A model generated the notes under the pieces. The model had not been told where the DNA came from. It made no database searches and saw nothing but the letters and a program-made list of their open reading frames with translations. From positions 1 through 64,000 of the forward strand of contig JACQQD010000009.1 in NCBI GenBank assembly GCA_016207165.1: 64,000 nucleotides of DNA. Reading direction: 5' to 3'. This document shows positions 27,417 to 53,795 of this stretch, in pieces; the first letter of the stretch is position 1, and each line of letters opens with the position of its first letter. A program made the translations under genes and the position numbers. Origin of the DNA: Microcaldota archaeon. Its GTDB lineage: Archaea; Micrarchaeota; Micrarchaeia; Norongarragalinales; Norongarragalinaceae.

Positions 27417-27465
27417 TATAGCAATCCCGGAAAGTAACCCGACAAAATAGTCCGGGATTGCTATA
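27417..27465 (-). repeat. dispersed hairpin element, copy 1 (hairpin A only)
   Basis: A perfect 15-bp inverted repeat (TATAGCAATCCCGGA / TCCGGGATTGCTATA) encloses a 19-nt loop reading AAGTAACCCGACAAAATAG on the plus strand. It begins 3 nt after the stop of the minus-strand gene 27468-27701 and ends 27 nt before the next minus-strand start. Stem bases differ from copies 3 and 4 by a compensatory pair (C-G replaced by G-C), while the loop is unchanged from copy 4. Confidence 0.85.
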
Positions 27466-27467
27466 AT

Positions 27468-27701
27468 TTACCCGATGCGGACGCCCAAGGCGTTTAGGAC
27501 CATGCCGAGCACCAGGGCCAGCAATACGGAGGCGATGACGAGGGTAATGTAGGAGATGGCCTTGATTTCGTAGACTTTTCTTTCGACGAGGCTTTCCGTG
27601 GTCTTCTCCCATTCCGAGAACGCGCTTTGGTCGATTTGCAGTTTTTCGAGGCGCTTTTCGATGCGTTCCAAGCGTTTTTGAGTACTGTCGCGTTGCAGCA
27701 T
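27468..27701 (-). CDS. small coiled-coil membrane protein (77 aa)
   Basis: An N-terminal amphipathic, heptad-like Lys/Glu/Arg helix (about residues 5-45) is followed by one long hydrophobic segment (ISYITLVIASVLLALVLGMVL) and a short tail. The topology suggests a membrane-anchored oligomer. Divergent from mcm. The dispersed hairpin element follows the stop codon. Function unknown. Confidence 0.65.
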   Translation of the reverse strand: MLQRDSTQKRLERIEKRLEKLQIDQSAFSEWEKTTESLVERKVYEIKAISYITLVIASVLLALVLGMVLNALGVRIG

Positions 27702-27854
27702 GCCGGTTTCTCCCGAAGGCTATTAAACGCTTTATGGCTATATTAATCGTCCTCTTCAGCGCGAAGCGGTGGGCGGCTCAGCGTTCCGATGGTCCAAAAG
27801 ACCATGGGTTCCGACTGTTCGCCCGTTGCGGCTAAGACAGGTGGGGAATTTTTC

Positions 27855-29900
27855 GTGGCAGAGGACTTCGTAAAGCTTTTTGAGGCTTTTTTTGACGCCA
27901 AAATGAGGGACGCCGTCACGGACACGTACAGCCAGTGGCCCAAGAAGCACAGCGTCAACGTCGATTACGGCGTATTGGACGCGTTTGATCCCGAACTCTG
28001 CGAAAAACTCTTGGAAAAGCCGGACGTCGTCGTCGACTGGGCGGAAACGGCCTTGAAGCATTTCACGCAATCCTTGTTCCAGGAGGAACGCGCGCTTCAC
28101 GTCCGCTTTTTCAATTTGCCGAGTCTTTTTGAGGTTCCGGTACAGGCCTTGGGTGCCGAGCACTTGGACCGACTGGTTCGGGTGGAAGGCGTGGTTTCCT
28201 GGGTCACGGAAATCAAGCCCCTCATGAAAGTCGCCTTGTGGCAGTGCATTCACTGCGGGCACACCATCAAAACAGCCACCGATAAGTCCGCGTTCAAGAA
28301 ACCGGGTTTGTGTCAGTGCGGCCGCCGGGATTTTGAGTTGCTGGAAAAGACGGGTGAATCCAACTTCATCAACATGCAGCGCGCCCAAGTGCAGGAACTC
28401 GTGGAAAAACTGCGGGGCAACGCGCCGACCGCGAACGTGGAGTTGTGGATGGAGGAAGACCTCGTCAACATCATGGTGCCCGGCGAAAAGTTCATTATGA
28501 CCGGCGTTTTGCGGTTGCGGCCCGTCAAGGAGGGGAAAACGAAAACGGCGGTGTACTCCAAGTTTTTGGACGTCCTGCATTTGCAGCGGATGGAGCGCGA
28601 GTTTGAAGCCATCGAGATTTCCAAGGAGGAAGAAGAGCAAATCCGGAAATTGGCCAAGGATCCCGGGTTGTTCGAGAAAATCGTCAAAAGCGTGGCGCCC
28701 TCCATTTACGGGTACAGTGAACTCAAGCAAGCCATTGCGTTGCAATTGTTCGGTGGCACGCCGGGGAAAGTCTTGCCGGACGGGAAACGCATCCGCAACG
28801 ACGCGCATATTTTGTTAATCGGTGACCCTGGTACCGCGAAAAGCTCGGTGTTGGGCTACGTGTCGCACATTGCGCCGAAAAGCGTGTTCGTGTCCGGCGA
28901 GTCGGCCACCGCCGTGGGCTTGACGGCTTCCGCTGAAAGGGACAAGGAAGGCGAGGGGTGGATCATCAAGGCGGGAGCCATGGTGTTGGCCAACGGGGGT
29001 TTGGCGATCATCGACGAATTCGACAAGATGGGTTTGGAGGACCGCGGGTCCATTCATCAAGCCATGGAACAGCAGAAAATTTCGGTGGCCAAAGCCGGCA
29101 TCGTCACCCAATTTCAGTCCAAGACCGCGGTTCTGGCGGCGGCCAACCCCAAGTTCGGGCGGTTTGACCCCAACGTTCCTCCGGCACAGCAATTCAACAT
29201 TTCCCCCGCGCTTTTGTCGCGGTTCGACTTGATTTTCACGATCAAGGATGTATTGGACGAGACGCGGGACCGCAAGATGGCCGACCACATTTTGCTGGGG
29301 CACAAGACGGGTCTTCAAAAAGAACCGGTTACCGACGAAGCCATTCTGCCGGCCATCAATTTGGATCTTTTGAGAAAGTACATCGCGTTCGCTCGCCGGA
29401 CGGTTCACCCCGTGCTGACGGAGGAGGCGTCCGAGAAAATCAAGGAATTCTACGTGGAATTGCGGCGGATGGGTGAAAAGGACAAGACGTTCGCCATTAC
29501 GGCAAGACAGATCGAGGGCGTGATCCGGTTGGCGGAGGCTTCCGCGAAACTGCGGCTTTCCGATCGCGTGGAATTGCAGGACGCGGAACGCTCCATTGCT
29601 TTGGTCAACTTTGTGCTCAACGACGTGTTCGTCGACAAGACCACTGGGCGAATCGACTCGGACATCATTTCCATTGGCCAGCCCAAAAGCCGCGTGGATC
29701 GGATGAGAACGATTTTGAACGTGATCCGGTCGCTTGAGAAGCAGTTTGACTTGGTGGCGGTGGATGACGTGGTCAAGGAAGCCGTGGCGTACGGGTTGGA
29801 TGACGTGTATGTGCGGCAATTGATTGACGAACTCAAGCGCCAAGGTGACCTGTACGAGCCGAAAGTGGGGCACATTAAATTGTCCAGGAAAGACTTGTAG
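27855..29900 (+). CDS. mcm: replicative helicase MCM
   Basis: 681 aa. GTG 27855 is chosen because GGTGGGG lies 9 nt upstream; ATG 27789 in frame would add 22 non-conserved residues. The N-terminal domain has a zinc-binding CIHC...CQC segment. The AAA+ core has Walker A GDPGTAKSS, Walker B LAIIDEFDKM, and arginine-finger segment LLSRFDLIF, then a winged-helix C-terminus. MCM hexamers unwind DNA at archaeal forks. No intein interrupts it. Confidence 0.96.
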   Translation: MAEDFVKLFEAFFDAKMRDAVTDTYSQWPKKHSVNVDYGVLDAFDPELCEKLLEKPDVVVDWAETALKHFTQSLFQEERALHVRFFNLPSLFEVPVQALGAEHLDRLVRVEGVVSWVTEIKPLMKVALWQCIHCGHTIKTATDKSAFKKPGLCQCGRRDFELLEKTGESNFINMQRAQVQELVEKLRGNAPTANVELWMEEDLVNIMVPGEKFIMTGVLRLRPVKEGKTKTAVYSKFLDVLHLQRMEREFEAIEISKEEEEQIRKLAKDPGLFEKIVKSVAPSIYGYSELKQAIALQLFGGTPGKVLPDGKRIRNDAHILLIGDPGTAKSSVLGYVSHIAPKSVFVSGESATAVGLTASAERDKEGEGWIIKAGAMVLANGGLAIIDEFDKMGLEDRGSIHQAMEQQKISVAKAGIVTQFQSKTAVLAAANPKFGRFDPNVPPAQQFNISPALLSRFDLIFTIKDVLDETRDRKMADHILLGHKTGLQKEPVTDEAILPAINLDLLRKYIAFARRTVHPVLTEEASEKIKEFYVELRRMGEKDKTFAITARQIEGVIRLAEASAKLRLSDRVELQDAERSIALVNFVLNDVFVDKTTGRIDSDIISIGQPKSRVDRMRTILNVIRSLEKQFDLVAVDDVVKEAVAYGLDDVYVRQLIDELKRQGDLYEPKVGHIKLSRKDL

Positions 29901-29915
29901 TTTTCAAAGCAATTG

Positions 29916-29922
29916 TATAAAA
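29916..29922 (+). promoter_or_regulatory. TATA box of the presenilin-like gene
   Basis: TATAAAA 29 nt before the ATG predicts an almost leaderless transcript starting near 29943. Confidence 0.6.
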
Positions 29923-29950
29923 TGCTGAATCCGCTTTCTACTTTGAAGAA

Positions 29951-30745
29951 ATGGTTTTTCGCATCCGCTTCGTGGCCCTGCAACTGTTGCTTGTGTTTGC
30001 CGTGGCGCAAGCCGCGGGACTGGTTGTCGGGTCTTTGTTTTTGGCGCAAGACATTCAAGTGATGGAGGACCCGTCGGATCCCGCCAACGCGTTGTATTTC
30101 CTGGGCGGCATCCTGGTGAGCACCGCCGTGCTCATGGCGGTGCTGTATTTCTACAAGGGCACCTGGTTTTTCAAGGCGGTCGAGGCGTTGCTGATGTTCG
30201 TGGCCGCGAACTTGTTTTTCTCGTTTTTCTTGGACGGTGTCGCGGCGTTGGGCGTGGCGGTGGGCTTGGTGGCGTTGCGGTTGCTCTTTGAGCCGTTCCG
30301 GCAGTACCTGCTCTTGTTTTCCACGGTCGTGGTCGGCGGACTTTTGGGCGCGTCGTTGGAATTTTTTCCCGTGTTGCTGTTTGTGGTGTTGTTGGCGGCG
30401 TACGATTTTGCCGCCGTTTTCCTTACGAAGCACATGGTGTTTTTGGCGAAGCGTTTGGATGAGCGGAAGGCGAGTTTTTCGGTGGGCTTCAAGCAGAAAA
30501 GACAGGAAGTGCAGTTGGGCACCGGCGACTTTGTGGTGCCCATCGTTTTGGCGGTATCTGTTTTGAATGGGTTCGGGCCGTTTTTGGCTTTGGCGGCCGG
30601 GTTGGGAGCGGTGCTGGGTTTGGGCGGGCTTTTGTGGCACATGGAGTCCAGGAAAGGCTATTTTCCGGGCTTGCCTCCGATTGTCGGCGGCCAATTGCTT
30701 TTGGTGGGCGTCGGGTTCTTGGTGAAAACGGTTTTGGGCGGTTGA
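29951..30745 (+). CDS. presenilin/signal-peptide-peptidase family intramembrane aspartyl protease
   Basis: 264 aa with about nine hydrophobic segments. The catalytic pair of the A22/GxGD family is visible: YD in helix 6 (Asp152, AAYDFAAVF) and GTGD in helix 7 (Asp193, LGTGDFVVP), with a PAL-like GLPPI turn at residues 240-244. Between the two Asp lies a hydrophilic loop of 25 residues. Archaeal homologues cleave transmembrane helices or leftover signal peptides. It is followed directly by a TauE-like transporter gene. Confidence 0.85.
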   Translation: MVFRIRFVALQLLLVFAVAQAAGLVVGSLFLAQDIQVMEDPSDPANALYFLGGILVSTAVLMAVLYFYKGTWFFKAVEALLMFVAANLFFSFFLDGVAALGVAVGLVALRLLFEPFRQYLLLFSTVVVGGLLGASLEFFPVLLFVVLLAAYDFAAVFLTKHMVFLAKRLDERKASFSVGFKQKRQEVQLGTGDFVVPIVLAVSVLNGFGPFLALAAGLGAVLGLGGLLWHMESRKGYFPGLPPIVGGQLLLVGVGFLVKTVLGG

Positions 30746-31507
30746 TTGACGTTGTCGGACGTTTTGTTTTACGTGTTGGTGTTCGGCATTTCCTTTGCTG
30801 GCGCCTTCGTGTCCATCGTGGGTGGAGGAGCCAGTTTGCTGGTGGTTCCCGTTTTGGTGATCTTGGGCGTGCCCATTCACGCGGTGGTGGCGACAAACCG
30901 CGTGTACGTGACGGTGTTCTTGCTGGCGGGCTTGCTGAATTACTTGCGGAAAAAGGTGCGTCTTGATTTTCGCGTTCTGTCCGCGTTTTTGGCGTTGCGC
31001 ATGGTGGGCGGCTTTGTCGGTTCTTCGCTGGTGCTGTCGTTGGACGAATCGTTTCTCAAGTCGTTGGCTGGCGCCGTGATCTTGGCGGCGGCCGTCGCCG
31101 TGGCGTTGGTGGAGCTTCTGCCTCCATTCAAGCGGCTGGGCCGTCCCAGTCGGCGCCGCTTTGCGGTGGTGGCTCTGGGCATGCTGATGCTGGGCATTTA
31201 CGCGGGGTTTGTCGGCGGTGGGGTCGCCGTGTTCGCTCGCGTGTTGTTGGTGTTGGCGTTCGGCTTTACGTTTTTGGAGGCGGCGGCGGCCGAGGCGGTG
31301 CTGGGACTTGGCGAAGGTTTGGCGGCATCCGCCGTTTTTTTGGCCGCCGGCGCCGTGGATTTCGTGTTGTTGTTGCCCATGGCCGCCGGGGGGATTCTGG
31401 GTGCCGTGGCCGGCTCCTCCATGGCGGTGCGCAAGGGTGATGGGTGGATTCGGCGCGTGGTAGTCCTGTTGGTCGTTGTTTTGGTCGCCAAAATGCTTTT
31501 TTTCTGA
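30746..31507 (+). CDS. TauE/SafE family membrane transporter
   Basis: 253 aa, about eight transmembrane helices in two similar halves. Each half opens with the family's Gly-rich motif: SIVGGGASLLVVPVL and GFVGGGVAVFARVLL. Family members export or import sulfur-containing or small organic anions; the substrate is not predictable. The only in-frame starts directly after the previous TGA are TTG 30746 and TTG 30752, implying translational coupling to the presenilin-like gene. Confidence 0.85.
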   Translation: MTLSDVLFYVLVFGISFAGAFVSIVGGGASLLVVPVLVILGVPIHAVVATNRVYVTVFLLAGLLNYLRKKVRLDFRVLSAFLALRMVGGFVGSSLVLSLDESFLKSLAGAVILAAAVAVALVELLPPFKRLGRPSRRRFAVVALGMLMLGIYAGFVGGGVAVFARVLLVLAFGFTFLEAAAAEAVLGLGEGLAASAVFLAAGAVDFVLLLPMAAGGILGAVAGSSMAVRKGDGWIRRVVVLLVVVLVAKMLFF

Positions 31508-31519
31508 ATGCGGCCCTGG

Positions 31520-32324: not shown

Positions 32325-32348
32325 GTTGGCGGGAGACGGCTTTTTTTC

Positions 32349-33102: not shown

Positions 33103-33124
33103 TTTCGCATTCGTTAAGTCGCTT

Positions 33125-36727: not shown

Positions 36728-39700
36728 ATGCTGTCGGACCTCTTAAAGCCTTTTCTGAGGTTTTACTTTCTTTTGGAGGAACACTACTACAAGGGTTTGG
36801 AGGCCATCGAAGAAAAATTCAGTGTGCCGGTGTTTGATTCGTTTGTCGACCCGTTGGAGTCCCGAGGCATTCCCTCGTTTTTCGTCGTGATCTTGCTCTT
36901 TTTGTTGTTGGCCGGTTCCGCGTTGGTGGTGTTAACCCAGTCGCAGCCCGCGGGCCTCCAAGTGCTGGTGTATGGAAAGACCAGCTCGATTTCCGGCCAG
37001 CCCCTGGATGGCGCTTTGGTGGAGTTGTCCGATGAAACCGGGGTTTTGGACTCGCAAAAAACGCGTCGGGGCCTGGTGTCCTTTGAAAACCTGAAAAGCA
37101 AGGCGTATACTGTTCGTGTGACGAAAGAAGGTTTTGAGTCTGGGCAACGCGCGGCCAACCCGGTGGAATCCAACGTGGTCCGCTTGGAATTGTCCTGCCA
37201 GAACGCGCAAACCTGCGCGGAACTGGAGGCGTTGGCTCGCAGCGGTGGCGGCGGCGGGTCGGTGGCTACGTCGACGCCCAGGCCGCCGGGTTCCGGTGGG
37301 GGTTTAACGCCGGGACTCACGTTTAGCAACCCCGAAAACGGAGTGGATCCCGAATCCCCGGTGGGCCGACTCTTGATTTTGGTGCGGGACGAGGACGGCA
37401 ACTTGCTGGAAGGCAACGCGAAAGTCTACGATTCCAAGAGCGGGGCACTCATTGAAGACGTGCCGGTGTCGCAGGGCTCCGGAGTTTTGCCGAGTCTTCG
37501 CGTCGGGCGCAAGGTGTTCGTCAACGTCTTTTCAACGGGTTTTTCGCCGTTCTTGGGCAAGTCCAAACCTATCGTCATTGCGCCGGCCACCAACAAAGTC
37601 ACCGTGGTTCTGGAAGCCGGTGGCCCCACCCTGTCTTCCGGCGTTCGGGTGGTGGACCCCGAAAACGCGCCGGTTTCCGGTGCGCAGGTGTCCGTCTATT
37701 TGGCGGACCACTCCGAAGTTTTGTACTCGGATTACTCGGATGCCGAGGGCTTTGTCGAACTGGAGTTGGGCGAGGGATCCTATTTTGCCGTGGCGCGCGC
37801 CGAGGGATACTTGATGAATTATTCGCCCCGCTTTGAAGGCGGGGACACGGCGACCATTGTCTTGCCGCTGCGTGGCGGGGGGCCTGGTGGAGGCGGTTGT
37901 GACGGGCCGTGCGAGAATGAAGCGCATTTGAACGTTCACGCCGTGGATGACCTAGGTGTTGATGCGTCGTATGCCGACGTGGTGCTGCAGCAGAAAACCG
38001 ATTTTGGTTCCTGGTTTGTCGTGGAACCCGCCGAGTATGCCGGCGCTTCGGGCCGCGTTCTTTTCACGGGCTTGGTGCCCCAATCCCAAGTGCAAGTCAT
38101 CGCCACTCTTTACGATTTGAACGGCTCGGCGCAGGCGACGCTGGTTCAGGGGCTCAACGAGTTGGAAGTCGTTTTGTCCAAGCCGCCTTTCCAGGTGCGG
38201 GCGTATGCCGTTGATGCCTTGGCCAATGCGTACGTTTCCGACGCGCGCTTTGACGCCTTGGTCAACGGTGAATTGGTGGGGCAATGCCAGGGCAACGGTT
38301 GTTTGTTGACCGTGATTTCCGCGGAGAATGTTTACGTCAACGCGTCCGCGGACGGCTTCGTGTCGTCCGGAAACGCGTTTTACTTGTACGAAGGACTTGA
38401 CTCCAACGTCACCTTGTATTTGGTCAACCAATCGGCTTTGGAGGACGTGCACGTCCAGTGGCAGGGGTTGTATGGCTCCAACGGCCGGGAAGTCTCCGAA
38501 CTTCGCCCCGGCCGCATGTACGAGGCGCGTTTGCAGGTTTTTTCCAAGAACGCGGACGCCACCGGAGTCGTCTTGGACACGCAGAACGACGATGCACCCG
38601 TTTCCGGCCTGACGCCGAACGGTTTTGAGCAGAAGGGTTCGTACGCGGGTAGTTGTTTTGCCCAAGACGCCGACTTTGAGTATCCCCGGCAAGCGTGGGT
38701 GGACGTCAGGTACGCGGGAACCGTCAACGGCCAAGTGCAATTCAATTTCACGTTGGACCCCGACATCACGCTGGATGCCGCCACGAAGACCAAGGTCTTG
38801 GAATTGGCTTACCGCGCCTACGTGGTTCGCGGAAGCGATTACTTGCGTAATCCTTTTGACGCCTCGTTGTCCACGCGCCCGCACGAGGACCACCCGTCGG
38901 GCTGTTCCGGCCAGACGGCGGTCTACGTCCAGAACGTGACGGTCAAAAGCGATTCGACGACGTGCAACGCGTTGGGTTGCGTGACCTTGAACTTTAGGCA
39001 GGGCCAACGTTTTGCGCCCACTTTGTTTGAGGCGGACAACCAAGTGCTCTTCAATTCAACGAAACTGGATCCATTGTACGTGTTCTACACCGTGGAGTTT
39101 TTCTCTGGCCCCACGACGTCCACGCGTCTTGTGGCAGATTGGCCTGACAATCGTCTGGTGTTTATCAACGCCACGCACCCCGTGGTTGGCGACTCGGTGT
39201 TGGGCAACTCCAAGCGTTGCGAGTTCTCCGACGCCAAAAAACAGCGTTCCATCTCGCTTTGGGCCTCGTCTTTGGAACTGGATTTGAGGGATTTGGCTTT
39301 GTGTAGCAATTATGCGCCGCCCACGCGTTCTCGGCCTTTGCGGTTTGACGGCGTGGCGTACGCCCGTGCCTTGGAGGCGGGTTCCTCCGACGTGGCGCTC
39401 ACGCTGTCCAATGGCACCGACTCGGTGTCCCAGCCAGCGTCGTTTTCCGTGTCGGGCTTTGGCGTGGCTGCCAATGAATTCGGCATCGTGGAAGCCAGGC
39501 TCTCGCAGGTCCAGAACGCGTTGCCGGATGCCGCCGTGTTTCCCGTGTTGTCCACTGGCGAGTGCACGGCGGCGCAGGTGGCTGGAGGTACGTGCGACGT
39601 GGGTTTCGTTCAAGCGGATTACCGTTTCACGGCGTTATCCAATTCCGGTTTTCAATCCGACGTTCGTGCTTCCGACGGGTTGCAAGTGCATCAAAACGCG

Positions 39701-42700
39701 GCGCCCCAGGCCGCTTCGGCGGGTGCGCCGGGCACGGCCGTTGAGGGCCACGCGCTGTTGTTGGTTCCGGCCAATGAGGGACTTCAGTGGTTGAACATCA
39801 CCAAGTCTTTGGGCAACCAGGCCACCGTTCTTTCCCGCGTCATCACGTTGGATGGCGGCGTATCGTTTAACGGTTCTTCGCCATTCCCGCCGGGTTGGGA
39901 CACGTGCAACGGCTTCGTGGGAATCCAGTACGACCCTTCCAAGAATCCCAAGTTGTCGCTGGGCCAAGGGTGCAGCGATTTGGGTTTCCGCGTCACGCCC
40001 GTGTTTCCGGCGGACGCCGTGTTTTTGAACATGTCGATTCCCGATTTCGGCCGCGTCGTTGCACGCGCGGCGGCCACGGACGGGTCCCATGCATGCTATG
40101 AAGTCTGTGAAATTGACCGCAACGGCTTTGTCTATGGTTGCGAGGGCTTTGGGAAAAGCTTGTTTAACAACGTGCAGTACCTCGTCCGGTACAACCCCGA
40201 GTTGTTGGACGTTTGCCCGTCGGCGTACAAAGTCAAGGGCAACCGGATTGCCGCGTCGCAAATCACGGTGGAGTTCGCGTACACCGGCGACCAGGAAGCG
40301 TCGCGAAACGTGACGTTGCACGTGTTGGCGGACAATTCCGACAAGAGCCTCTACATTTCGCCGGTGTACACCTTTTATGGCTCCAGTTCGGAAGTGCTTT
40401 ACCCTCAGTTGTGGTCGGTGACCAACTACAAGCAACTCGGCAAGCGCAGCATCGTGTTCACTCAGCCTGGCAACATCGCCGTGTCTTTTGACGGTCCGGG
40501 AGTCAAGGTGTTCGCCGTATCCCAGGCGGGAACCGTTCAAGCGTTTGAGGGTTCGGACCGCTCTGCGCCGATTTTCGATTCCGCAAACCCCCAAAGCCCC
40601 GTCAAAACGGTTTCCAAGTACGGAGAGGCGTTGGCGTCCAGCCAACAGCAATTTGACGTGTCCACGCCGTATGCCGAAGCGTTGTCTTCGGCGTTGACGG
40701 AGTCGTTGTCCCAGAACGCGTTTCTTCAAAGCGAAGTCGCCGAAAAATTGAGTGCGTCGGTGCCGAGGGTGGCGGAGCGCACGGCGTATTGGCGCAGCAG
40801 CCAAGTCATTCGCTACTGCCAGCAGTCCCAGGCGTGCGTGGACTCGTATTACACGTTGGACGGCTGTTGCAAGGAATCCGTGGAGGACTGGAAGAATTAC
40901 ACGGTGCGCATCGATTACAGGCAAGAATCCTGCACGTTCTGCAACAACACGTTCAACCCGTCCTGCACCGACACGTCTCTGGAACACCTTCGAGGATACC
41001 TTCAATGCTCCTACGAGGCCACTCCTTCGTCCTCCTTCCAATGCGACCAGCGGTGCACGGCCAAGTCGTTGTTCCCGTTGGACGTGCAGCAGGGCATCGA
41101 CAACCAGTTGGGGGTGGGCGGCACCGGCATCACGTACGACGTGCTTCAAGGCAAGTACCTTTCGTACGGCGACTCCTTGGGCGGGCGCACGTGCCGCGTC
41201 GAGTTCTCTTCGCTCAATGCCTTCGTCAAGCAGGGCACCACGTTTACGTATTACTTGCCTTCGCAGCCCAAAACCGAGGTGCTCAAGGAGGAGTTGGAGC
41301 GTTGCTTGGCCAATGGCGATTGTCCGTTGACGCTCAAACCGTCGGCGAATCCCTCCCCGCTTCCATTTTTAGGGGCCCAACCGGCTCAACTAGTTCAATG
41401 CGTTTCCGATGCCAACCAGGACGGGTTGCATCAATTCAGCGAAAGCGTGGTGGACGCGTCTTGGCAGGTTCAATACCGGCAATTCGGGGGACAAATCGAC
41501 AAGGAGTTCTACAAGTGTCCGGCGGGACGCATTGCGGCGGTGGCGGAAGTCTCGTTTTTCTTTGAGGCGCGCCAGAACGGCGTGATTGCTTCCCGGACGG
41601 TGGCTACGGCGGCGGACATAGAGCGGTGCCGGCAAGGCACTTGTCCTTTTGTGGTCACGCCGCCCAACACGCCGGTTGTAGGAGGAGGCGTGCCCATTTG
41701 TTTTGCGGATTCCAATGGCAACGGTTTTGTTGAAACCAACCGGCAAAGCGAACTGAGTTCTTTACAACCTGCTGTGGCCTCCGGTTTCCAGGGCGGTGTG
41801 TACCAGTGTCCGTCCGGCACGCGGTTGGCCGTGGCGAATTTCTGCGTGTCGTCGTGCGAGAATTATTGTTCGGCGCCCAACTGCGACGCGTCGTTGGCGT
41901 GCCTTTCCAGCGGGGTCAAGAACGTGCCGACGGGCGGGACGGAACGCCTCTTCAACGGGTGGCTCAACGAAAGCCCGGTGGTGCCCGTGAACTTGGATGC
42001 GTCGCATTTGTCGCGTGGCAAACCCAATGTGCCGGCGGCGTGGTTTCCCGACGCGTTTTTGGAATCCGACGGAAAGCCTCTGTTCACGCATTCGTATGTG
42101 GTGAACTCCAAGACTCAGCCCAATTCGGTGGCGTCGTTAACCAAGGTGCTTTCCGTTCAGGGATGCGGGCCGGCGGGGGATTACCCGTACGACCAGACGC
42201 TTCTGCCGGAGCAGGGCCTATATGAAATCAGGGACTACAACGTGTTGGACGTCTCCGGTTCCACGTGGGTGGCTCAAGCCAATGCCGTGACGCTTTTGCG
42301 GCAGAATTACTTGGGGGACAAGTCGGCGGTGTGCCGCAAGCCCCAGTGGGATACGCAGTTGTGTGAGGTGTCGTTTGTGGATTCCTCTTCGCAGTACGGC
42401 GGGTGCTTCAACTCGATTCTGCAGTATCAGGGCTCTTCCAAGAAGTTGGGTGCGGACGTGCCTTTGGTGGGGGGTTTGGGTTACGGCGTCAAGAATGGCG
42501 TAGGCTTTGGCGTGGCGCCCAACGGGCACGCGTTTGCGTTGTTTGAGCCGGGATACGGCGAGGACAAGTGCGAGGACAAGAATAAAGTGCATTATGACTA
42601 TCAGACGTTGAACCACTGGAATCCGGATGGAAAAAACACGGGCGACCGCAAGTTCACGTGGCGGCAGGACTTGGGTTGCCACAGTGATTGCGGGTGCAAG

Positions 42701-43072
42701 AAGGGCGGGTACGGTTTGCTGGCCATTATTTTGGGGATTTTGGTGGCGGCTTTGTTCATTTTCGCTCTGCCGGCTTTGACGGGCGGATACACGGCACTGA
42801 TCATTGGTGGCGCCTCCATCGAGTTTTCCACGATTGGTTTGCTGGCTGGCGCGGCGATAGCTGGCGTGGGTTCCGGTGTGGGAGAGGTGGCTGGGGCGGT
42901 GGCGTCAAGCGTGATTCAGACGGTCAGCCAGGGCGCCATTGGCGTGGATTGCCAGTCGTGGGGTTTCTCGGGAGCGGTGGCGTACGCGTGCAAGGGAACG
43001 ATTTGGCAGATTTCCGCGGGCTTCGTCGCGCTTTTGTCTTGGATTCCCCGAAAGAAAAGGAAAGCCAATTAG
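36728..43072 (+). CDS. giant Cys-containing envelope protein (2114 aa)
   Basis: An N-terminal amphipathic region of 50 residues precedes a transmembrane helix (FFVVILLFLLLAGSALVVL, about 55-75). Carboxypeptidase-regulatory-like beta domains (about 77-155, 220-300, 305-380) are separated by Gly-rich linkers, followed by a long region with many Cys (CVDSYYTLDGCCKES, CTFCNNTFNPSC). EF-hand-like Asp/Asn runs (SDANQDGLHQFSE, ADSNGNGFVETN) occur near 1560 and 1660. The C-terminal 170 residues contain several hydrophobic segments and end KKRKAN. Most of the chain is probably outside the cell, disulfide-bonded and anchored at both ends. It could mediate adhesion or host contact; no family is assigned. 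Confidence 0.8.
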   Translation: MLSDLLKPFLRFYFLLEEHYYKGLEAIEEKFSVPVFDSFVDPLESRGIPSFFVVILLFLLLAGSALVVLTQSQPAGLQVLVYGKTSSISGQPLDGALVELSDETGVLDSQKTRRGLVSFENLKSKAYTVRVTKEGFESGQRAANPVESNVVRLELSCQNAQTCAELEALARSGGGGGSVATSTPRPPGSGGGLTPGLTFSNPENGVDPESPVGRLLILVRDEDGNLLEGNAKVYDSKSGALIEDVPVSQGSGVLPSLRVGRKVFVNVFSTGFSPFLGKSKPIVIAPATNKVTVVLEAGGPTLSSGVRVVDPENAPVSGAQVSVYLADHSEVLYSDYSDAEGFVELELGEGSYFAVARAEGYLMNYSPRFEGGDTATIVLPLRGGGPGGGGCDGPCENEAHLNVHAVDDLGVDASYADVVLQQKTDFGSWFVVEPAEYAGASGRVLFTGLVPQSQVQVIATLYDLNGSAQATLVQGLNELEVVLSKPPFQVRAYAVDALANAYVSDARFDALVNGELVGQCQGNGCLLTVISAENVYVNASADGFVSSGNAFYLYEGLDSNVTLYLVNQSALEDVHVQWQGLYGSNGREVSELRPGRMYEARLQVFSKNADATGVVLDTQNDDAPVSGLTPNGFEQKGSYAGSCFAQDADFEYPRQAWVDVRYAGTVNGQVQFNFTLDPDITLDAATKTKVLELAYRAYVVRGSDYLRNPFDASLSTRPHEDHPSGCSGQTAVYVQNVTVKSDSTTCNALGCVTLNFRQGQRFAPTLFEADNQVLFNSTKLDPLYVFYTVEFFSGPTTSTRLVADWPDNRLVFINATHPVVGDSVLGNSKRCEFSDAKKQRSISLWASSLELDLRDLALCSNYAPPTRSRPLRFDGVAYARALEAGSSDVALTLSNGTDSVSQPASFSVSGFGVAANEFGIVEARLSQVQNALPDAAVFPVLSTGECTAAQVAGGTCDVGFVQADYRFTALSNSGFQSDVRASDGLQVHQNAAPQAASAGAPGTAVEGHALLLVPANEGLQWLNITKSLGNQATVLSRVITLDGGVSFNGSSPFPPGWDTCNGFVGIQYDPSKNPKLSLGQGCSDLGFRVTPVFPADAVFLNMSIPDFGRVVARAAATDGSHACYEVCEIDRNGFVYGCEGFGKSLFNNVQYLVRYNPELLDVCPSAYKVKGNRIAASQITVEFAYTGDQEASRNVTLHVLADNSDKSLYISPVYTFYGSSSEVLYPQLWSVTNYKQLGKRSIVFTQPGNIAVSFDGPGVKVFAVSQAGTVQAFEGSDRSAPIFDSANPQSPVKTVSKYGEALASSQQQFDVSTPYAEALSSALTESLSQNAFLQSEVAEKLSASVPRVAERTAYWRSSQVIRYCQQSQACVDSYYTLDGCCKESVEDWKNYTVRIDYRQESCTFCNNTFNPSCTDTSLEHLRGYLQCSYEATPSSSFQCDQRCTAKSLFPLDVQQGIDNQLGVGGTGITYDVLQGKYLSYGDSLGGRTCRVEFSSLNAFVKQGTTFTYYLPSQPKTEVLKEELERCLANGDCPLTLKPSANPSPLPFLGAQPAQLVQCVSDANQDGLHQFSESVVDASWQVQYRQFGGQIDKEFYKCPAGRIAAVAEVSFFFEARQNGVIASRTVATAADIERCRQGTCPFVVTPPNTPVVGGGVPICFADSNGNGFVETNRQSELSSLQPAVASGFQGGVYQCPSGTRLAVANFCVSSCENYCSAPNCDASLACLSSGVKNVPTGGTERLFNGWLNESPVVPVNLDASHLSRGKPNVPAAWFPDAFLESDGKPLFTHSYVVNSKTQPNSVASLTKVLSVQGCGPAGDYPYDQTLLPEQGLYEIRDYNVLDVSGSTWVAQANAVTLLRQNYLGDKSAVCRKPQWDTQLCEVSFVDSSSQYGGCFNSILQYQGSSKKLGADVPLVGGLGYGVKNGVGFGVAPNGHAFALFEPGYGEDKCEDKNKVHYDYQTLNHWNPDGKNTGDRKFTWRQDLGCHSDCGCKKGGYGLLAIILGILVAALFIFALPALTGGYTALIIGGASIEFSTIGLLAGAAIAGVGSGVGEVAGAVASSVIQTVSQGAIGVDCQSWGFSGAVAYACKGTIWQISAGFVALLSWIPRKKRKAN

Positions 43073-43109: not shown

Positions 43110-44600
43110 ATGGTTTTTTCCGTTTTTTCCCGGTTGGAGAAAAGCAAGGTGGGCGTGGCCCCGCTTTTTTTCGTTCTTTTGTCCGCGGTGCTGGCCCGCA
43201 TCGTCTTGGAGTGGGTTTTGGAGGCGGGCCACCAGTTGCAGTCTCCGGCGTCGTTGTTCTTGTTTTTGTCGTATTTTTCGGTGACGCTTTGCGGCGTCGT
43301 GCTTCTGCTTTGGCTTTTTTCCGGAAAGCCTTTGGTGGGGGTTGTCCGGGTGGTGGCGGGGTTTTCGTGGTTGCTTTGGGTGCCGCCGGTCTTTGACTTT
43401 TTGTGGTCAGGCGGGAAAGGGTATGCTTTGAGTTTCGTGTTTTCCGTCGCCGGCTTTTGGGAGGCTTTTTCCTCGTTTTGCGCGTCGTGCGTGGGGGTTT
43501 CGCCCGGACTTCAAGCCGAGGTTTTCTTGTTGTTGTTCGTCGCTTTCGCTTACGTTTTTTGGGCGTCAAAAAGTCTGTTTCGGGGGGTTTTAGCGGTTTT
43601 GGGGGTGTACGCGTGGGTGCTTTTCGGCGCCTTGTTTCCGGGTTTCTTGATGGGTTTTTTCGGGCATGCGTTCCAGGACGCGTTCTTGTTTAGGGAGACG
43701 TTGTCGGCGTATGCCGTGGCGTTGTCGGCTTTCTTTTTCGCGTTTTTGGCTTCAGACAAGAAAGTGGCGGCCGCGTTCTGGAGCCGGTTGCGGTTGGAGC
43801 GGTCCCTGCATTACGCGGGCGTGGCGTTGTTTGGGGCGGTGTTGGGTTTTTCGTTTTGGGAGCATTCGTTTCCAGGTGTTTTGCTGCCTTTGGCCGCTTT
43901 GCTTTTCAGCGTGTTTTTCGCGTTTGAGGCTGCGGTGTGGGTCAACGACGCCTTCGATGAACGCATTGACCGCATTTCAAGTCCGAAGCGCGTGAAACTG
44001 GCGTCGTTGCTTGAACCTTACCAGGGCTTTTTTCTGGCCGCCTTTTTGGTGTTAAGCTTGGTGGCCGGTTTGGCGGCAGGTTTTGGGGTCTGGTTGTGGG
44101 TGGGCTTTGCCTTGGCGTTGAGCGCCGCGTATTCGGTGCCGCCGCTTCGCCTGCGCTGGCATTTCCTGTCGTCAAGTCTGGTCATCGCCTTGTGTTCCAC
44201 CGTCGTTTTCGTGGCGGGTTTTTCTTTGGGGTTGCTGGAGCCGGAGACCGTGCTTGCGGTGGTGCCGGTGGAGTGGGTAGCCATGGTTTTTGGCTTCGTT
44301 TTCTTGGCGTCGCCTCTGGTCTGCCTCAAGGACGCGGACGGGGATAAAAAGGCGGGGGTATTGACGTTGGCGTCTTGGCTGGGTCTGAGGCGCGCCTGGT
44401 GGGCGGTGTTGGGGTTGACTGTGTCGGCCGTGGCGTGGGCGGCGTATTTCGCGGCGCTTTCCTGGGTTTGGGCGGCGTTGTTTGCCGTGGCGGTGGCGGT
44501 TTGCTTTGTTTGGACGCGGTTTGCCGCCGTCAAGTTGGAGCCGTTGGCGTTTTTGTTGGAGTACGCGTTTCTGGTTGTCGTGGCGTTGCACTTGGTATAG
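43110..44600 (+). CDS. UbiA-superfamily prenyltransferase with an N-terminal membrane extension
   Basis: 496 aa, very hydrophobic. The C-terminal 280 residues carry both Asp-rich motifs of UbiA enzymes: NDAFDERID (Asn279 on) and the second at LKDADGDKK (Asp408 on). The first 220 residues add about six more helices not usual in this family. UbiA enzymes attach isoprenoid chains to aromatic or polar acceptors, including archaeal lipid and quinone synthesis; the substrate is unknown. The stop codon TAG is the first three bases of a dispersed hairpin element. Confidence 0.75.
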   Translation: MVFSVFSRLEKSKVGVAPLFFVLLSAVLARIVLEWVLEAGHQLQSPASLFLFLSYFSVTLCGVVLLLWLFSGKPLVGVVRVVAGFSWLLWVPPVFDFLWSGGKGYALSFVFSVAGFWEAFSSFCASCVGVSPGLQAEVFLLLFVAFAYVFWASKSLFRGVLAVLGVYAWVLFGALFPGFLMGFFGHAFQDAFLFRETLSAYAVALSAFFFAFLASDKKVAAAFWSRLRLERSLHYAGVALFGAVLGFSFWEHSFPGVLLPLAALLFSVFFAFEAAVWVNDAFDERIDRISSPKRVKLASLLEPYQGFFLAAFLVLSLVAGLAAGFGVWLWVGFALALSAAYSVPPLRLRWHFLSSSLVIALCSTVVFVAGFSLGLLEPETVLAVVPVEWVAMVFGFVFLASPLVCLKDADGDKKAGVLTLASWLGLRRAWWAVLGLTVSAVAWAAYFAALSWVWAALFAVAVAVCFVWTRFAAVKLEPLAFLLEYAFLVVVALHLV

Positions 44601-44688
44601 CAAGCCAAGAAAGTTTCCCGACTACTTTCTTGGCTTGCTAGACAGCAAGACCGGCCTATTTCGTCGTCTTATTTGCCGGTCTTGCTGT
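44598..44688 (+). repeat. dispersed two-hairpin element, copy 2
   Basis: Hairpin B: a perfect 17-bp stem (TAGCAAGCCAAGAAAGT at 44598-44614 with 44624-44640), loop TTCCCGACT. Hairpin A: a perfect 14-bp stem (44642-44655 with 44675-44688), 19-nt loop 44656-44674. Read on the minus strand, the A loop is AAATAAGACGACGAAATAG, matching 15 of 19 positions of the copy-1 loop, while its stem sequence differs throughout. Relative to the flanking genes, orientation and B-then-A order equal copies 3 and 4. Confidence 0.85.
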
Positions 44689-44699
44689 AAGCTGACAAC

Positions 44700-46795: not shown

Positions 46796-46888
46796 TATAG
46801 CAATCCCCGAAAGCAACGCGACAAAATAGTCGGGGATTGCTATCTAGCAAACGGCGCGAAAGTTTCGGGAAACTTTCGCGGTTTGCTA
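46796..46888 (-). repeat. dispersed two-hairpin element, copy 3
   Basis: Hairpin A: TATAGCAATCCCCGA / TCGGGGATTGCTAT (46796-46843), 19-nt loop AAGCAACGCGACAAAATAG. Hairpin B (46845-46888): outer TAGCAAAC/GTTTGCTA and inner perfect 11-bp GCGAAAGTTTC/GAAACTTTCGC. It starts 12 nt after the stop of 46900-47217 (minus) and ends 26 nt before the next minus-strand ATG. It differs from copy 4 only by two loop bases. Confidence 0.88.
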
Positions 46889-46899
46889 TAATGGTCCCG

Positions 46900-49248: not shown

Positions 49249-50453
49249 ACGAAGGGATGGCCAACGCGTTGCAGGATTTGCGGGAAGGCAACATGGTGGT
49301 GTTGGTGGACGCCCACCGGGAAGCCGAGGGAGACGTGATGATGGCCGCGCAGAAGGCTAGGCCCGAGGACTTGGCGTTCATGCTGCGGCACGCACGCGGA
49401 TTCATTTGCATGACCTTGCGCGAGTCGCGGAGAAAAGAGTTGCGCATTTCCCGGATGGTGCCGCACAACACGGACCGCTTCCAGACGCCGTTTCTGGTTT
49501 CCGTTGGCGCGAAAACAGGTGGATCCGGCACGTCGGTGCACGACCGCCTCCAAGCGGCCAAACACGTCATGGATCCGGCGACCCATCAGGACGACTTGAC
49601 GGTTCCAGGCCACTTGCACCTTCTTTCCGCGAAGGATGACGGCGTTTTGTCGCGTTTAGGGCATACCGAGGCGGCCACGGACTTGGTGGCATTGGCGGGT
49701 TTGTCGCCGTACGCGTTTGTGTGCGAAATCATGAACGACGACGGCTCCATGGCCGACGCTTCCCAACTGAGGGCTTTTGCTGAAACGCATGGCTTGTCCA
49801 CGGTGACTTTGGAGGACGTGGTGGCATTGCGCAAGACCCATGTCCTTCCTGTTCAAGCCGATGCGCCTTGCTGCGTGGCGCGCGTGTCCGAGGCCAAACT
49901 TCCAACTCCTTTTGGCGACTTCACCATCTACGCGTATCGCGACGATGTGGAGTCAAAGACGCACTTGGCGTTGGTCAAGAAACCGCTTGGAAAACCTGTT
50001 TTCGTGCGGATGCATTCCAAGTGCGTCACCGGCGACGCGCTTTTTTCGGCGCGCTGCGATTGCGGGCCTCAACTGGAAGCCGCGTACCGCGTCATTTCAA
50101 AAAAGGGCGGCGTGATTCTGTATTTGGACCAGGAGGGCCGCGGCATCGGCTTGGAAAACAAGATCAAGGCGTACGCCTTGCAGGATGGGGGTTTGGATAC
50201 AGTGGAGGCCAACCACCAACTGGGCTTGCCGGTGGATGCGCGAGAGTACGCGGCGGCCGCGTGCATGTTGTTGGACCTCGGCATTTCGTCGGTGACGTTG
50301 TTGACGAACAACCCGCTGAAAGTCCGGGGCCTGGAGAAAAACGGGGTGGCGGTGGCCCAACGCGTTGCGCTGGAGACGGCGCCCACGCCCCAGAACCGTT
50401 CGTATCTGTCCACGAAGAAATCCAAGTTGGATCACGCGTTGACCAAGTTATGA
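49245..50453 (+). CDS. ribBA: bifunctional DHBP synthase / GTP cyclohydrolase II
   Basis: 402 aa. Residues 1-205: dihydroxybutanone phosphate synthase with DAHREAEGDVMMAAQ, TGGSGTSVHDR, PGHLHLLSAKDDGV and GHTEAATDL. Residues 206-402: GTP cyclohydrolase II with zinc ligands KCVTGDALFSARCDCG and YLDQEGRGIGLENK. It makes both precursor branches of riboflavin. The fused bacterial-type RibBA is unusual in archaea, which mostly use cyclohydrolase III. The ATG overlaps ribH in an ATGA. Confidence 0.95.
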   Translation: MNEGMANALQDLREGNMVVLVDAHREAEGDVMMAAQKARPEDLAFMLRHARGFICMTLRESRRKELRISRMVPHNTDRFQTPFLVSVGAKTGGSGTSVHDRLQAAKHVMDPATHQDDLTVPGHLHLLSAKDDGVLSRLGHTEAATDLVALAGLSPYAFVCEIMNDDGSMADASQLRAFAETHGLSTVTLEDVVALRKTHVLPVQADAPCCVARVSEAKLPTPFGDFTIYAYRDDVESKTHLALVKKPLGKPVFVRMHSKCVTGDALFSARCDCGPQLEAAYRVISKKGGVILYLDQEGRGIGLENKIKAYALQDGGLDTVEANHQLGLPVDAREYAAAACMLLDLGISSVTLLTNNPLKVRGLEKNGVAVAQRVALETAPTPQNRSYLSTKKSKLDHALTKL

Positions 50454-51523
50454 ACGACGCGGACTTCATGCGCCACGCGATTTCTTTGGCTCAAAACGTG
50501 TACCGCGCGTCGCCCAATCCGCGGGTGGGCTGCGTCCTTGTAAAAGACGGAAACATCATTGGGAAGGGCTTTCACGCCAAGCATGGGGGTCCGCATGCTG
50601 AGGCGGTGGCTTTGGAAGAAGCCGGGGTCAACGCCGCTGGCTCCACGGCGTTTGTGTCGTTGGAGCCGTGCGCGCACGCCGACAAGAAGACGCCGCCGTG
50701 CGCGCAGGCGTTGGTCCGTGCCGGCGTGTCGCGCGTGGTGGTGGGGGTGTTGGACGCCAACCCCAAAGTCAACGGACGCGGCATCGCGTTTCTCAAGGAA
50801 AACGGCGTGGCCGTGACGGAAGGCGTTTTGGAGGCCGAGGCGCTGGAAGTCAACCGGTTTTTTTTCAAATCCGTTTCCCTTCAGCGTCCGTGGGTGACGT
50901 TGAAGATGGCCTCCACCCTGGATGGAAAAATTTCGTCGTCGTCTCCGTGGCTGTCCAATGCGTCCTCGCGGAGAATCGTGCAGCGCCTGCGGGCGGAGCA
51001 TGATGCGGTGCTGGTGGGCAAGAACACGGTGTTAAGCGATGACCCGATGCTTTCGTGTCGGCTTCCCGATGCACTTCAGCCTTTGAAAGTCGTGGTGGAC
51101 TCCACGCTTCAGTGCCCATTGGATGCCCGCGTGTTTGCATCGGGCAACGCCGTTGTGGCCTGCACGACTCAGGCTCCCCTGGATCGCGTGGAGGCTTTCC
51201 GAGAAAAGGGGGTGGCGGTTTGGGTGCTGCCGAAATGCCCGCAGGGAGTTGACTTGGAGGCGTTGGTGAAGCGGTTGGGCGAGCAAAACGTGTTGAGTGT
51301 CTTTGTGGAAGGCGGGGGAAGGCTGGCATCTGCTTTTTTGGACTTGGATTTGGTGGACGAAGCCTACTTTTTCGTGGCGCCGCTTTTGGCGGGATCCGAT
51401 GCGGTGCCGTTGTATTCTTGTAAAAAGGAGAAGCGATTTGCAGGTGCTTTGGTGGCGGTGGTGGACGACGACGCGTGTTTCCGCGTGCGTCTACCCGCTG
51501 TAAAACCAGGCCATGACCAATAG
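50450..51523 (+). CDS. ribD: bifunctional pyrimidine deaminase/reductase
   Basis: 357 aa. N-terminal CDA-type deaminase: PNPRVGCVLVKDG, zinc ligands in PHAEAVAL and PCAHADKKTPPC. C-terminal NADPH-dependent reductase: RPWVTLKMASTLDGKI, NTVLSDDP and FVEGGGRLASAF. The bacterial-type fused RibD fits the RibBA beside it and together they supply the pyrimidinedione. The 3' end overlaps a possible minus-strand mini-ORF. Confidence 0.95.
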   Translation: MNDADFMRHAISLAQNVYRASPNPRVGCVLVKDGNIIGKGFHAKHGGPHAEAVALEEAGVNAAGSTAFVSLEPCAHADKKTPPCAQALVRAGVSRVVVGVLDANPKVNGRGIAFLKENGVAVTEGVLEAEALEVNRFFFKSVSLQRPWVTLKMASTLDGKISSSSPWLSNASSRRIVQRLRAEHDAVLVGKNTVLSDDPMLSCRLPDALQPLKVVVDSTLQCPLDARVFASGNAVVACTTQAPLDRVEAFREKGVAVWVLPKCPQGVDLEALVKRLGEQNVLSVFVEGGGRLASAFLDLDLVDEAYFFVAPLLAGSDAVPLYSCKKEKRFAGALVAVVDDDACFRVRLPAVKPGHDQ

Positions 51524-51592
51524 GAAGGGAAACAGCCGCCAGAAGAAGGCTTCGGGCTTGTCTCCCAGGATGTGGACGGCGTGTTTCAGCAT
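51491..51592 (-). CDS. putative 33-aa membrane peptide at the end of cluster 2
   Basis: A minus-strand ORF starts at ATG 51592, 20 nt after the preceding stop, with AGGGAGA upstream. It encodes a short basic start and a hydrophobic helix (FFWRLFPFLLVMAWFYSG). It overlaps the 3' end of ribD by 33 nt in antisense. Support is limited to the binding site, position and composition. Confidence 0.35.
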   Translation of the reverse strand: MLKHAVHILGDKPEAFFWRLFPFLLVMAWFYSG

Positions 51593-51611
51593 CGGGTTTG
51601 GCGTCTCCCTG

Positions 51612-52007
51612 TCAGCGTCTGTTTTTCTTTGCCTCGGTTTTCCTGGTCTTGGTTTTTTTCTGGTGCATGCCTAAAAGGGCGGCGGCTTGTTGTTCGAAGT
51701 GCTTGGCCAGCCGGCGCACCCCCAACATGAATTCGCCTTCGTACAATCCAGCCAAGGCGATGACGCCGAAGGCCACGCCGATGCCGAACCACTCGAAGAT
51801 GCGGTCTGACAAGATCACGGGTTTTCCGCGCAGCTCGTCGAAAAACGTGACGGGATACCGCCACTGGAGGTACTCGTAGACGAGGAACATGGCGGCGGCG
51901 ACCACCAGGATGACCAGCAACCTCCATTTGAGGTTGAACAGCTGCACGCGCTGGTGGTGCGCGATCTTGTAGAAGGACGCGTACTTTTTCAGGCGTTTAA
52001 GGGGCAT
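51612..52007 (-). CDS. membrane protein, cluster 2 (131 aa)
   Basis: A basic N-terminus with KLKKYASFYK-like charge, two hydrophobic segments (about 29-47 and 72-92), and a Lys-rich C-terminal tail (KKTKTRKTEAKKNRR). It joins the previous gene end to start. Both the N-terminus and the tail are likely cytoplasmic. Function unknown. Confidence 0.65.
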   Translation of the reverse strand: MPLKRLKKYASFYKIAHHQRVQLFNLKWRLLVILVVAAAMFLVYEYLQWRYPVTFFDELRGKPVILSDRIFEWFGIGVAFGVIALAGLYEGEFMLGVRRLAKHFEQQAAALLGMHQKKTKTRKTEAKKNRR

Positions 52008-52313
52008 TTAGCGGATTCCTCCGGGTTGGGTTTGTTTGGGTTGTGGAGTCAGGGTGTTGAACAGCATGGTGAACGTCGGCAACATGAACAGAAGCCCGCT
52101 GGTTAATAAAATCCACCCGAACACGCCGAGGCTGCCGATGAGGGGGTGCTCGATGACCAAAAAGTAGACGACGATGCCGGACACCACCAGGGTGAGAAGC
52201 GGGGAGAAGGCCAGTTTTTCCCGGACCCAGGAGTACCACCACCATCCCACGAAAAACAGGATCAGCCACTTGCCGATTTCCAGCCAGAATCCGATGTCGT
52301 CCAAGAGTCCCAT
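52008..52313 (-). CDS. membrane protein, cluster 2 (101 aa)
   Basis: Three hydrophobic segments, Trp-rich at the first (WLILFFVGWWWYSWV), and a Pro/Gln-rich C-terminal tail. ATG 52313 is listed; GTG 52319 two codons earlier is equally possible. The upstream gene stops at 52321. Function unknown. Confidence 0.62.
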   Translation of the reverse strand: MGLLDDIGFWLEIGKWLILFFVGWWWYSWVREKLAFSPLLTLVVSGIVVYFLVIEHPLIGSLGVFGWILLTSGLLFMLPTFTMLFNTLTPQPKQTQPGGIR

Positions 52314-52320
52314 GTTCACG

Positions 52321-52797
52321 TCACGATTGCATCAGTTGCATGCGCTGCATTTGCTGGAGTTGCTGGTTGCCGCCGCCGGACACCTGGTTTTGCGCCATTT
52401 GTTGCTGGAACCACTCCATCTCTTGCTGGCTGGCGTGGCCCCGCTCGATTTGTTCTTGGACGCGCTGCATTTTGGCCTGCATCTTGCGGGGGTCCGTCTC
52501 TTCGGCGGACGCCAGCCGGTCGCCCATCACGTGGTATCCCAGCAACGGAAACAAGCCGAACCACATGACTTGCTGGATTTGCATGCCGAACAAGAACAAG
52601 AACACGAACGCGGCCGTCAAAAGCACCACGGAAACGCCGTGGATGAAGATCAGAAAGCCGGTGACGGTGGCCGTGATGCCGAACAAAAGGGGCAAGTCGC
52701 GAAACGTCATGTACAGCCAGAACAAAATGTAGGTAAACGACAGGATTTGAACGACGAAACCCAGTTCCGCCAAGGTCTCGAAAATGCCCAGGACCAT
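52321..52797 (-). CDS. membrane protein with Gln/Met-rich tail, cluster 2 (158 aa)
   Basis: Four hydrophobic helices in the first 95 residues, then a cytoplasmic-type tail with a charged helix (KMQAKMQRVQEQIERG) and a low-complexity Gln/Met end. Such tails can drive self-association. Function unknown. Confidence 0.65.
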   Translation of the reverse strand: MVLGIFETLAELGFVVQILSFTYILFWLYMTFRDLPLLFGITATVTGFLIFIHGVSVVLLTAAFVFLFLFGMQIQQVMWFGLFPLLGYHVMGDRLASAEETDPRKMQAKMQRVQEQIERGHASQQEMEWFQQQMAQNQVSGGGNQQLQQMQRMQLMQS

Positions 52798-52833
52798 GAA
52801 CGGTGTTACGCGTTTCCCACTTAAAAGAGTTGC

Positions 52834-53676
52834 TTACTTCTTTTTCCCCTTGCTTTTCGGCGGCGGCTTTTGGAGGGCTTCCTCGTATTGTGCAAGGGCG
52901 GCCAAGTCTTTTTTGTCCATGGTCTCGTCCCTCTTCATTTTTCCAAGCGCGTCTTTTTTTTCACGGTCCGTGACGGGGCGCATCAACCCCCTGCGGACCA
53001 TTTCGCTGGCGGGGTCCTTGGCGTTGCCCAAGGCCCTGGCTTTGGCGGGGTTGACGTGCCGGAATCCGTCCATGACTTCGTTGAACGCGGATGGATCGAT
53101 GCGGTCCTCTTCTTCCGAGGCCATGCCCAAGCGCCGGATGGCGTTTTGGATGTGCGCGTCAAGCGGGTCCTCTTCGCGTCCCATGGTGCGCAGGTCGTCT
53201 TTGGTGACGAAATTCAGGTTCGCCCTGGCGATACCCTCGCGCTGCTCGGCGTTGGGGTGGACTTGCGTCACCAATACCGGATAGGCGTTGCCGTGTTGCG
53301 CGTGGGCCAAAAAGGCCACGGCCATCTCACGCCCAAGCGCCTTGAATTCCTCCAATGTTTCGCGGTGTCTTTCCGCGTTGGCGTCGCCCTCCTCGGCATC
53401 CGGAATGTGGTAGTCGGACAAAACGATGTGCGCTGGCTGGTTCTTCAGGTGTTCCAAGGCGTCGGCAATGGTTCGTACCCCGTGAAGCTTGACAACCAGG
53501 TTGGCATGCCCGTGTTGCCTGCCCCATTGTTCAATTCTTTTTTTGCGGTTCCGAAACCATTCCCGTATCCGGTCCAATTCGTAGTCCTCGTTTTCCACGT
53601 GCAATACGTGAAGCACTTTAGGCGGTTCTTCCATTTCCCTCATTCGTCGCTGGAGTTCTTCCCGGCCTGGAGCCAT
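52834..53676 (-). CDS. receiver-like (REC) domain protein with a charged C-terminus
   Basis: 280 aa, soluble. Residues 20-165 read as a response-regulator receiver with insertions: VLHVENEDYELDRI (acidic pocket), HIVLSDYHIPD with phospho-acceptor Asp88, PVLVTQVHP and FVTKDDL with the conserved Lys. The C-terminal 115 residues are charged and Lys-rich without a DNA-binding motif I recognise. It follows element copy 4 by 27 nt. No histidine kinase is in the window. Contrast with the degenerate receiver at 23011. Confidence 0.7.
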   Translation of the reverse strand: MAPGREELQRRMREMEEPPKVLHVLHVENEDYELDRIREWFRNRKKRIEQWGRQHGHANLVVKLHGVRTIADALEHLKNQPAHIVLSDYHIPDAEEGDANAERHRETLEEFKALGREMAVAFLAHAQHGNAYPVLVTQVHPNAEQREGIARANLNFVTKDDLRTMGREEDPLDAHIQNAIRRLGMASEEEDRIDPSAFNEVMDGFRHVNPAKARALGNAKDPASEMVRRGLMRPVTDREKKDALGKMKRDETMDKKDLAALAQYEEALQKPPPKSKGKKK

Positions 53677-53702
53677 AACGGGTTACTGGATTGTTCGGGT
53701 TT

Positions 53703-53795
53703 TATAGCAATCCCCGAAAGTAACCCGACAAAATAGTCGGGGATTGCTATCTAGCAAACGGCGCGAAAGTTTCGGGAAACTTTCGCGGTTTGCTA
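53703..53795 (-). repeat. dispersed two-hairpin element, copy 4
   Basis: Same plan as copy 3. Hairpin A stem is TATAGCAATCCCCGA with its complement, and the 19-nt loop is AAGTAACCCGACAAAATAG, identical to copy 1. Hairpin B is at 53752-53795, identical to copy 3. It begins 17 nt after the stop of the gene at 53812-54258 and ends 27 nt before the receiver-like gene. Confidence 0.88.

Follow-up and report, generated by a model that had tools for sequence, protein, structure and literature searches.

Short DNA elements that fold into hairpins have been described in bacterial, archaeal and mitochondrial genomes. The CIR (CerM-associated intergenic repeats) of Caulobacter and Brucella are about 110 bp long, lie in intergenic DNA and have 5'-TA termini and two stem-loops joined by a linker, with GANTC as the loop motif, while the Correia, ERIC and RUP elements belong to the bacterial and archaeal MITEs (miniature inverted-repeat transposable elements), which are small, non-autonomous and intergenic, with TA termini and a target duplication (PMC2229807). 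REP/BIME dimers, of the GTAG and CGTC families, are inverted pairs of imperfect palindromes in intergenic DNA and are often heterodimers with different stems (PMC3733652). In mitochondria, the GC clusters of yeast are associated with AG or ACT repeats (PMC4478555), and double-hairpin elements of Allomyces are cited in a passage of PMC2800124. Here, a family of paired hairpins is described from a 64-kb window (positions 1-64000 of contig 9) of a Candidatus Micrarchaeota metagenome-assembled genome (MAG) of 1.27 Mb in 12 contigs, G000. With a probability of roughly three in four, its copies would represent a non-autonomous, MITE-like transposable element of two adjacent hairpins, about 95 bp long, that spreads in intergenic regions of the Micrarchaeota and Woesearchaeota.

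Paired hairpins in the window and in related archaea

All four elements that a sequence-only reading of the window had claimed are present, copies 2 to 4 as double hairpins (hp1 and hp2) and copy 1 as a single one:

27416..27466, minus strand: copy 1, a single hairpin (hp2-type unit only) with a 16-bp perfect stem and a 19-nt loop; covariance model 49.6 bits, E 1.4e-5.
44596..44689, plus strand: element 2, a double hairpin with flanking TAs; hp1 44598-44640, spacer GA 44641-44642, hp2 44643-44687; covariance model 104.5 bits.
46796..46890, minus strand: element 3, a double hairpin with TAs; hp2 46798-46842, spacer 46843-46844, hp1 46845-46888; covariance model 103.9 bits.
53703..53797, minus strand: element 4, a double hairpin with TAs; hp2 53705-53749, spacer 53750-53751, hp1 53752-53795; covariance model 108.4 bits, the top score in G000.

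Copy 1 has TA at each end and sits between two minus-strand genes. Copies 1 and 4 carry the loop AAGTAACCCGACAAAATAG exactly, copy 3 matches it at 17 of 19 positions and copy 2 at 15 of 19, just as had been claimed, and hp1 of element 3 bears a conserved 2-nt asymmetry (AACC-GCG / CGC-GCCGTT). Long inverted repeats (stem of at least 12) in the window are these elements only. When folded as single-stranded DNA, the tested strands gave exactly the hairpins drawn, with z-scores of -6.4 to -11.7 and none of 200 shuffles as good.

The plan of the family is constant, namely TA, hairpin 1 (42-45 nt), GA, hairpin 2 (44-46 nt) and TA, for a total of 93-95 bp. The base of the stem is mostly TAGCAA/TTGCTA and can covary too (CAG..CTG, TAGTCG/CGACTA, TACC/GGTA), and the consensus loops are YCGAC or TTGAAC, with the motif opposed in orientation between the two hairpins. 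Dozens of copies were found in the fetched loci by a structure-only scan (two adjacent 12-bp hairpins with a 2-nt spacer), which gave none in three shuffled windows, and the pattern TAGCAA-N-TTGCTA has 23 matches in G000 against 2 for a reversed control pattern. With the covariance model, G000 has 24 places and G001, a relative of the same genus, has 38, so that the further copies on which the sequence-only reading had made itself depend do exist, both in this genome and in related DPANN genomes. Of the 295 genomes of the class 22 have matches, and so do 40 of a set of 145 related to a Woesearchaeota genome; named records with the element belong for the most part to Ca. Micrarchaeota and Woesearchaeota. 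In none of 75 elements do hp1 and hp2 have the same stem core, against about 3.1 expected by shuffling, which is suggestive only, and fits a heterodimer that must avoid collapse into one long hairpin.

The claim that no named family fits was borne out against Rfam, as no family reached the gathering threshold in a covariance-model search, the match to mir-1255 lying far under it. None of 57 pattern matches in IMG/VR has the double-hairpin structure, and BLAST against phage and plasmid records returned no match. Two loci of a Thermoflexales MAG (L109, L113) fit the search pattern but are unrelated arrays of TTTGCTATATAGCAAA palindromes. In a literature search, with subscription papers outside its reach, no description was found of small palindromic mobile DNA from DPANN archaea, including Micrarchaeota and Woesearchaeota.

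Empty sites, target repeats and a putative mobiliser

Elements 2 and 4 are both absent from the orthologous intergenic sites of the relatives G001, G002 and G008, and element 3 is absent from that of G002 and G008. In G001 the gap of element 3 holds a different variant in inverted orientation (G001:C13:53857-53951; L087 7858-7952), which either replaced the element or was inserted independently at a hot spot. Element 2 adjoins a UbiA-family gene (43110..44600, plus strand) whose stop codon TAG (44598-44600) is formed by the first three bases of the element, and the orthologues that are without it have a longer C-terminus, reading LHLSGF.. where G000 reads LHLV and then the stop. Between G000 and these three relatives, copies at non-orthologous places are 88-94% identical, while most syntenic genes are at 65-70%.

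The flanks carry repeats of two lengths. In Woesearchaeota and in one Micrarchaeota lineage (G042), exact 3-bp repeats are present in 15 of 19 copies (TTA, TAA and one TTG) and 4-bp repeats in 0 of 19. In the other Micrarchaeota, TA is found on both sides in 65 of 65 copies, as counted with a scan that mildly favoured TA. The next base outwards is T at the left end of 33 of these copies and A at the right end of 40, which suggests targets resembling TTAA. The invariant palindromic flank of these TA-flanked lineages points to a 2-bp target duplication, and two G001 copies lie head to tail with one TA in common. Because the orthologous sites are empty, target repeats stand at the flanks and the copies are more alike between species than the genes are, the family is judged to be mobile, and its copies in the window to have arrived by insertion, as mobile DNA.

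The loop of hairpin 1 can itself house a second, compact double-hairpin family, arranged as GA, hairpin, GCATGC, hairpin, TC (G000:C7:5928-6079, L100 2929-3080; and C7:33179-33330, L190 2680-2831), and this nested insert is flanked by a duplication of AT (CAA-AT-insert-AT-TTCACG, as compared with CAAATTTCACG). The two composites have hp1 and the insert in common and differ in hp2; the hairpins are therefore modular. Micrarchaeota and Woesearchaeota loci (L074 1320-1366, L174 335-384, L202 4173-4221, L201 4377-4424, L108 2768-2814) also hold other compact hairpin pairs, linked by GGGCCC, GTGCCC or GCATGC, which are probably additional families of the same kind. At other loci, halves of the element are fused to different hairpin clusters (CTTGCAA.. 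and CACAAGT.. repeats), as if repeatedly rearranged (L199 2596-2798, L206 2924-3083, L191 2523-2684).

In the mechanism proposed for the MITE-like element, an enzyme supplied in trans would cut at TA/TWA-like sites with a stagger of 2-3 bases and insert the element, after which the gaps would be filled to leave the flanking repeats. The enzyme would read the folded hairpins, as single-stranded or cruciform DNA with the TAGCAA base and the YCGAC/TTGAAC-type loop motif, and not the sequence of the stems, which would be free to turn over in matched pairs because the fold rather than the stem sequence is what would be recognised. Staggered target repeats imply double-strand cuts 2-3 bases apart, as made by DDE-type enzymes.

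Several observations weigh against this explanation. The Y1, DDE_3/IS630 and DDE_Tnp_1/IS4-IS5 transposases, the three families searched in a genome about 90% complete, either have no match in G000 or do not follow the distribution of the element among genomes. An IS4/IS5-type (DDE_Tnp_1) enzyme is thus rejected as the resident mobiliser, being absent from G000, and so is an IS630-type MITE, since the cognate DDE_3 profile (PF13358) has no match in the four genomes searched (G000, G001, G002 and G008). An insertion sequence (IS) that adjoins an element in G008 has ends unrelated to it. The element ends in the inverted pair TAGCAA/TTGCTA; in the loci examined there is neither an autonomous partner nor a longer version with an internal gene between matched arms. 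Moreover, a DDE transposon of the plain kind could do without paired stems, and the 2-bp duplication presumed for the TA-flanked lineages derives from the shape of the flank and not from a strain-level empty site.

Stem covariation and its possible causes

Covariation was assessed on 47 sequences and 25 stem pairs, a set obtained with a scan that had required paired stems and in which shared ancestry inflates the cell counts. In this set 96.6% of the stem cells are paired, 23 of the 25 pairs have changes on both sides, and cells with a double change number 253 against 7 with a one-sided one, so that the stems vary and yet stay paired, as the sequence-only reading had it. Covariation scores 0.600 in the alignment, as compared with 0.165 +/- 0.010 for shuffled sequences and 0.05-0.10 for slid partners, controls that have the same shared ancestry. 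With G.T and A.C tolerated equally, the two occur in 17 and 18 of 1536 stem cells (about 1% each) without strand bias, a pattern unlike the usual one of RNA with G.U intermediates; wobble pairs this rare and this equal between strands indicate either a hairpin at the DNA level or arm-to-arm correction. In hairpins with identical loops (L004/L104, L015/L104), three to four stem pairs have changed, each fully matched, and one hairpin pair combines only two loop differences with eight matched stem changes; where the loops are the same or nearly so, the stems differ in whole blocks of 3-8 matched pairs. In the closest copies, loop differences per site are five times the one-sided stem differences.

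The sequence-only reading had taken a conserved loop with covarying stems as the mark of a selected RNA (or single-stranded DNA) structure and not of plain duplication. The family, its covarying stems and its conserved loops are real, but the part concerning RNA and the exclusion of duplication were not supported, as the copies are mobile insertions, with empty orthologous sites, target repeats and high identity between species; the alternative given in parentheses, single-stranded DNA, was the better half. A role as RNA in the transcript of a neighbouring gene, be it as a small RNA, a riboregulatory or 3' end structure, or a terminator, is an unlikely explanation. Strong covariation speaks for it, and so does the placement of all four window copies between co-directional genes and in the sense of transcription, an orientation that is true within the window but is due to chance. 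Gene context was counted for the 58 copies of G000 and G001, with genes taken from a simple codon-score gene finder; no copy lies within a predicted gene, and the neighbouring genes are co-directional for 34 copies (12 sense and 22 antisense), convergent for 12 and divergent for 12. Given the missing polarity and the scarcity of wobble pairs, with G.T no more frequent than A.C, RNA or a terminator is rejected as the general role; in addition, orthologous genes manage without the element and Rfam offers no match. That one-sided stem changes are nearly absent also warns that covariation alone does not prove a functional RNA.

A different view is that pairing is kept by mutation, one arm being copied onto the other by template switching in the replicating hairpin (quasi-palindrome correction) or by recombination between copies, in which case the element would still be mobile and recognition of the hairpins would not be needed. 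This is a serious possibility, though a minority one. The excess of double over one-sided changes, the almost complete lack of wobble intermediates and the block-wise matched changes between hairpins with like loops favour arm-to-arm correction, a mechanism documented in E. coli and yeast according to passages in PMC7202029 and PMC3820800. Correction should, however, remove the 2-nt asymmetry of one hp1 class (CC vs GGC), which persists in G000, G001, G002 and G008 amid varying neighbour pairs and thus favours recognition of the folded hairpins, and it leaves unexplained the conservation between phyla of overall length, of the 2-nt spacer and of the opposed loop motifs. Fold recognition and template-switch correction may both be at work.

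Two known systems that act on folded single strands were also considered. REP/BIME dimers or IS200/IS605-type (PATE) elements, moved by a RAYT-like Y1 HUH transposase on single-stranded hairpins, resemble the family in that two inverted imperfect hairpins form intergenic heterodimers (PMC3733652), and one hp1 class has a conserved bulge. Nevertheless, the Y1 domain (PF01797) is absent from nine element-rich genomes, all incomplete MAGs, while control genomes match, and a GTAG tag directly adjoins the element in 0 of 75 cases. Y1 transposition is not known to make target repeats, and repeats of 2-3 bp are present here. Lacking both the Y1 transposase and the tag, the family is rejected as a member of either group, and this origin is highly improbable. 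Integron attC sites, folded single-stranded recombination sites here supposed to be scattered by a tyrosine recombinase, likewise combine a conserved loop or base with variable stems, and their report from archaeal genomes, including Nanoarchaeota (PMC9668308), counts in their favour. That the elements are attC sites is nonetheless scarcely credible: the boxes GTTRRRY and RYYYAAC are found together in 0 of 75 elements, the copies are dispersed rather than set in cassette arrays, target repeats are present, and each element is a pair of hairpins.

Beyond the MITE-like element itself, we tentatively propose a DPANN structure-directed transposition, in which an enzyme would read the opposed pair of hairpins by shape and loop motif and insert it with a 2-3 bp stagger, one arm being regenerated from the other by the enzyme or by a copying step, so that the plan would stay fixed across two archaeal phyla while the sequence drifts; at least one other compact family of double hairpins, with a GCATGC linker and an AT duplication, would coexist with it and nest in it. 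Separately from the elements, the window contains three very long open reading frames, all on the plus strand, at 36728-43072 (2114 aa), 2862-7991 (1709 aa) and 8079-12527 (1482 aa), possibly encoding large surface proteins.

Comparison with known systems

The family shares with CIR two independent stem-loops, TA at both ends, an intergenic position, a conserved loop motif and a similar length. CIR, however, are alphaproteobacterial, are without an established target duplication and have a GANTC loop and a linker where a fixed 2-nt spacer is seen here, and no sequence link between the two was found. From REP/BIME it is set apart by the lack of a GTAG tag and of any RAYT (Y1) transposase found, by the fixed 2-nt spacer and 95-bp length, and by the 2-3 bp target repeats. 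Like Correia, ERIC and RUP, it is small, non-autonomous and intergenic, with TA at the termini and a target duplication; each of those, in contrast, forms a single stem-loop from end to end, and RUP has ends in common with a known IS630, whereas the present family has a pair of separate hairpins whose stems turn over in matched fashion, and no partner IS was found for it. The likeness to the mitochondrial double-hairpin elements (two adjacent hairpins, conserved structure, variable sequence and sporadic distribution) is one of plan only and not of common descent, as those sit in organelle genomes, the Allomyces ones are reported without flanking duplications, and no sequence similarity is claimed. 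Present in dozens of tiny, gene-dense DPANN genomes of two phyla and with clean target duplications, the family can serve to mark the exchange of DNA between symbiotic archaea, and it offers a tractable case for the old question, common to mitochondrial GC clusters, CIR and REP dimers, of how double-hairpin elements that carry no enzyme move.

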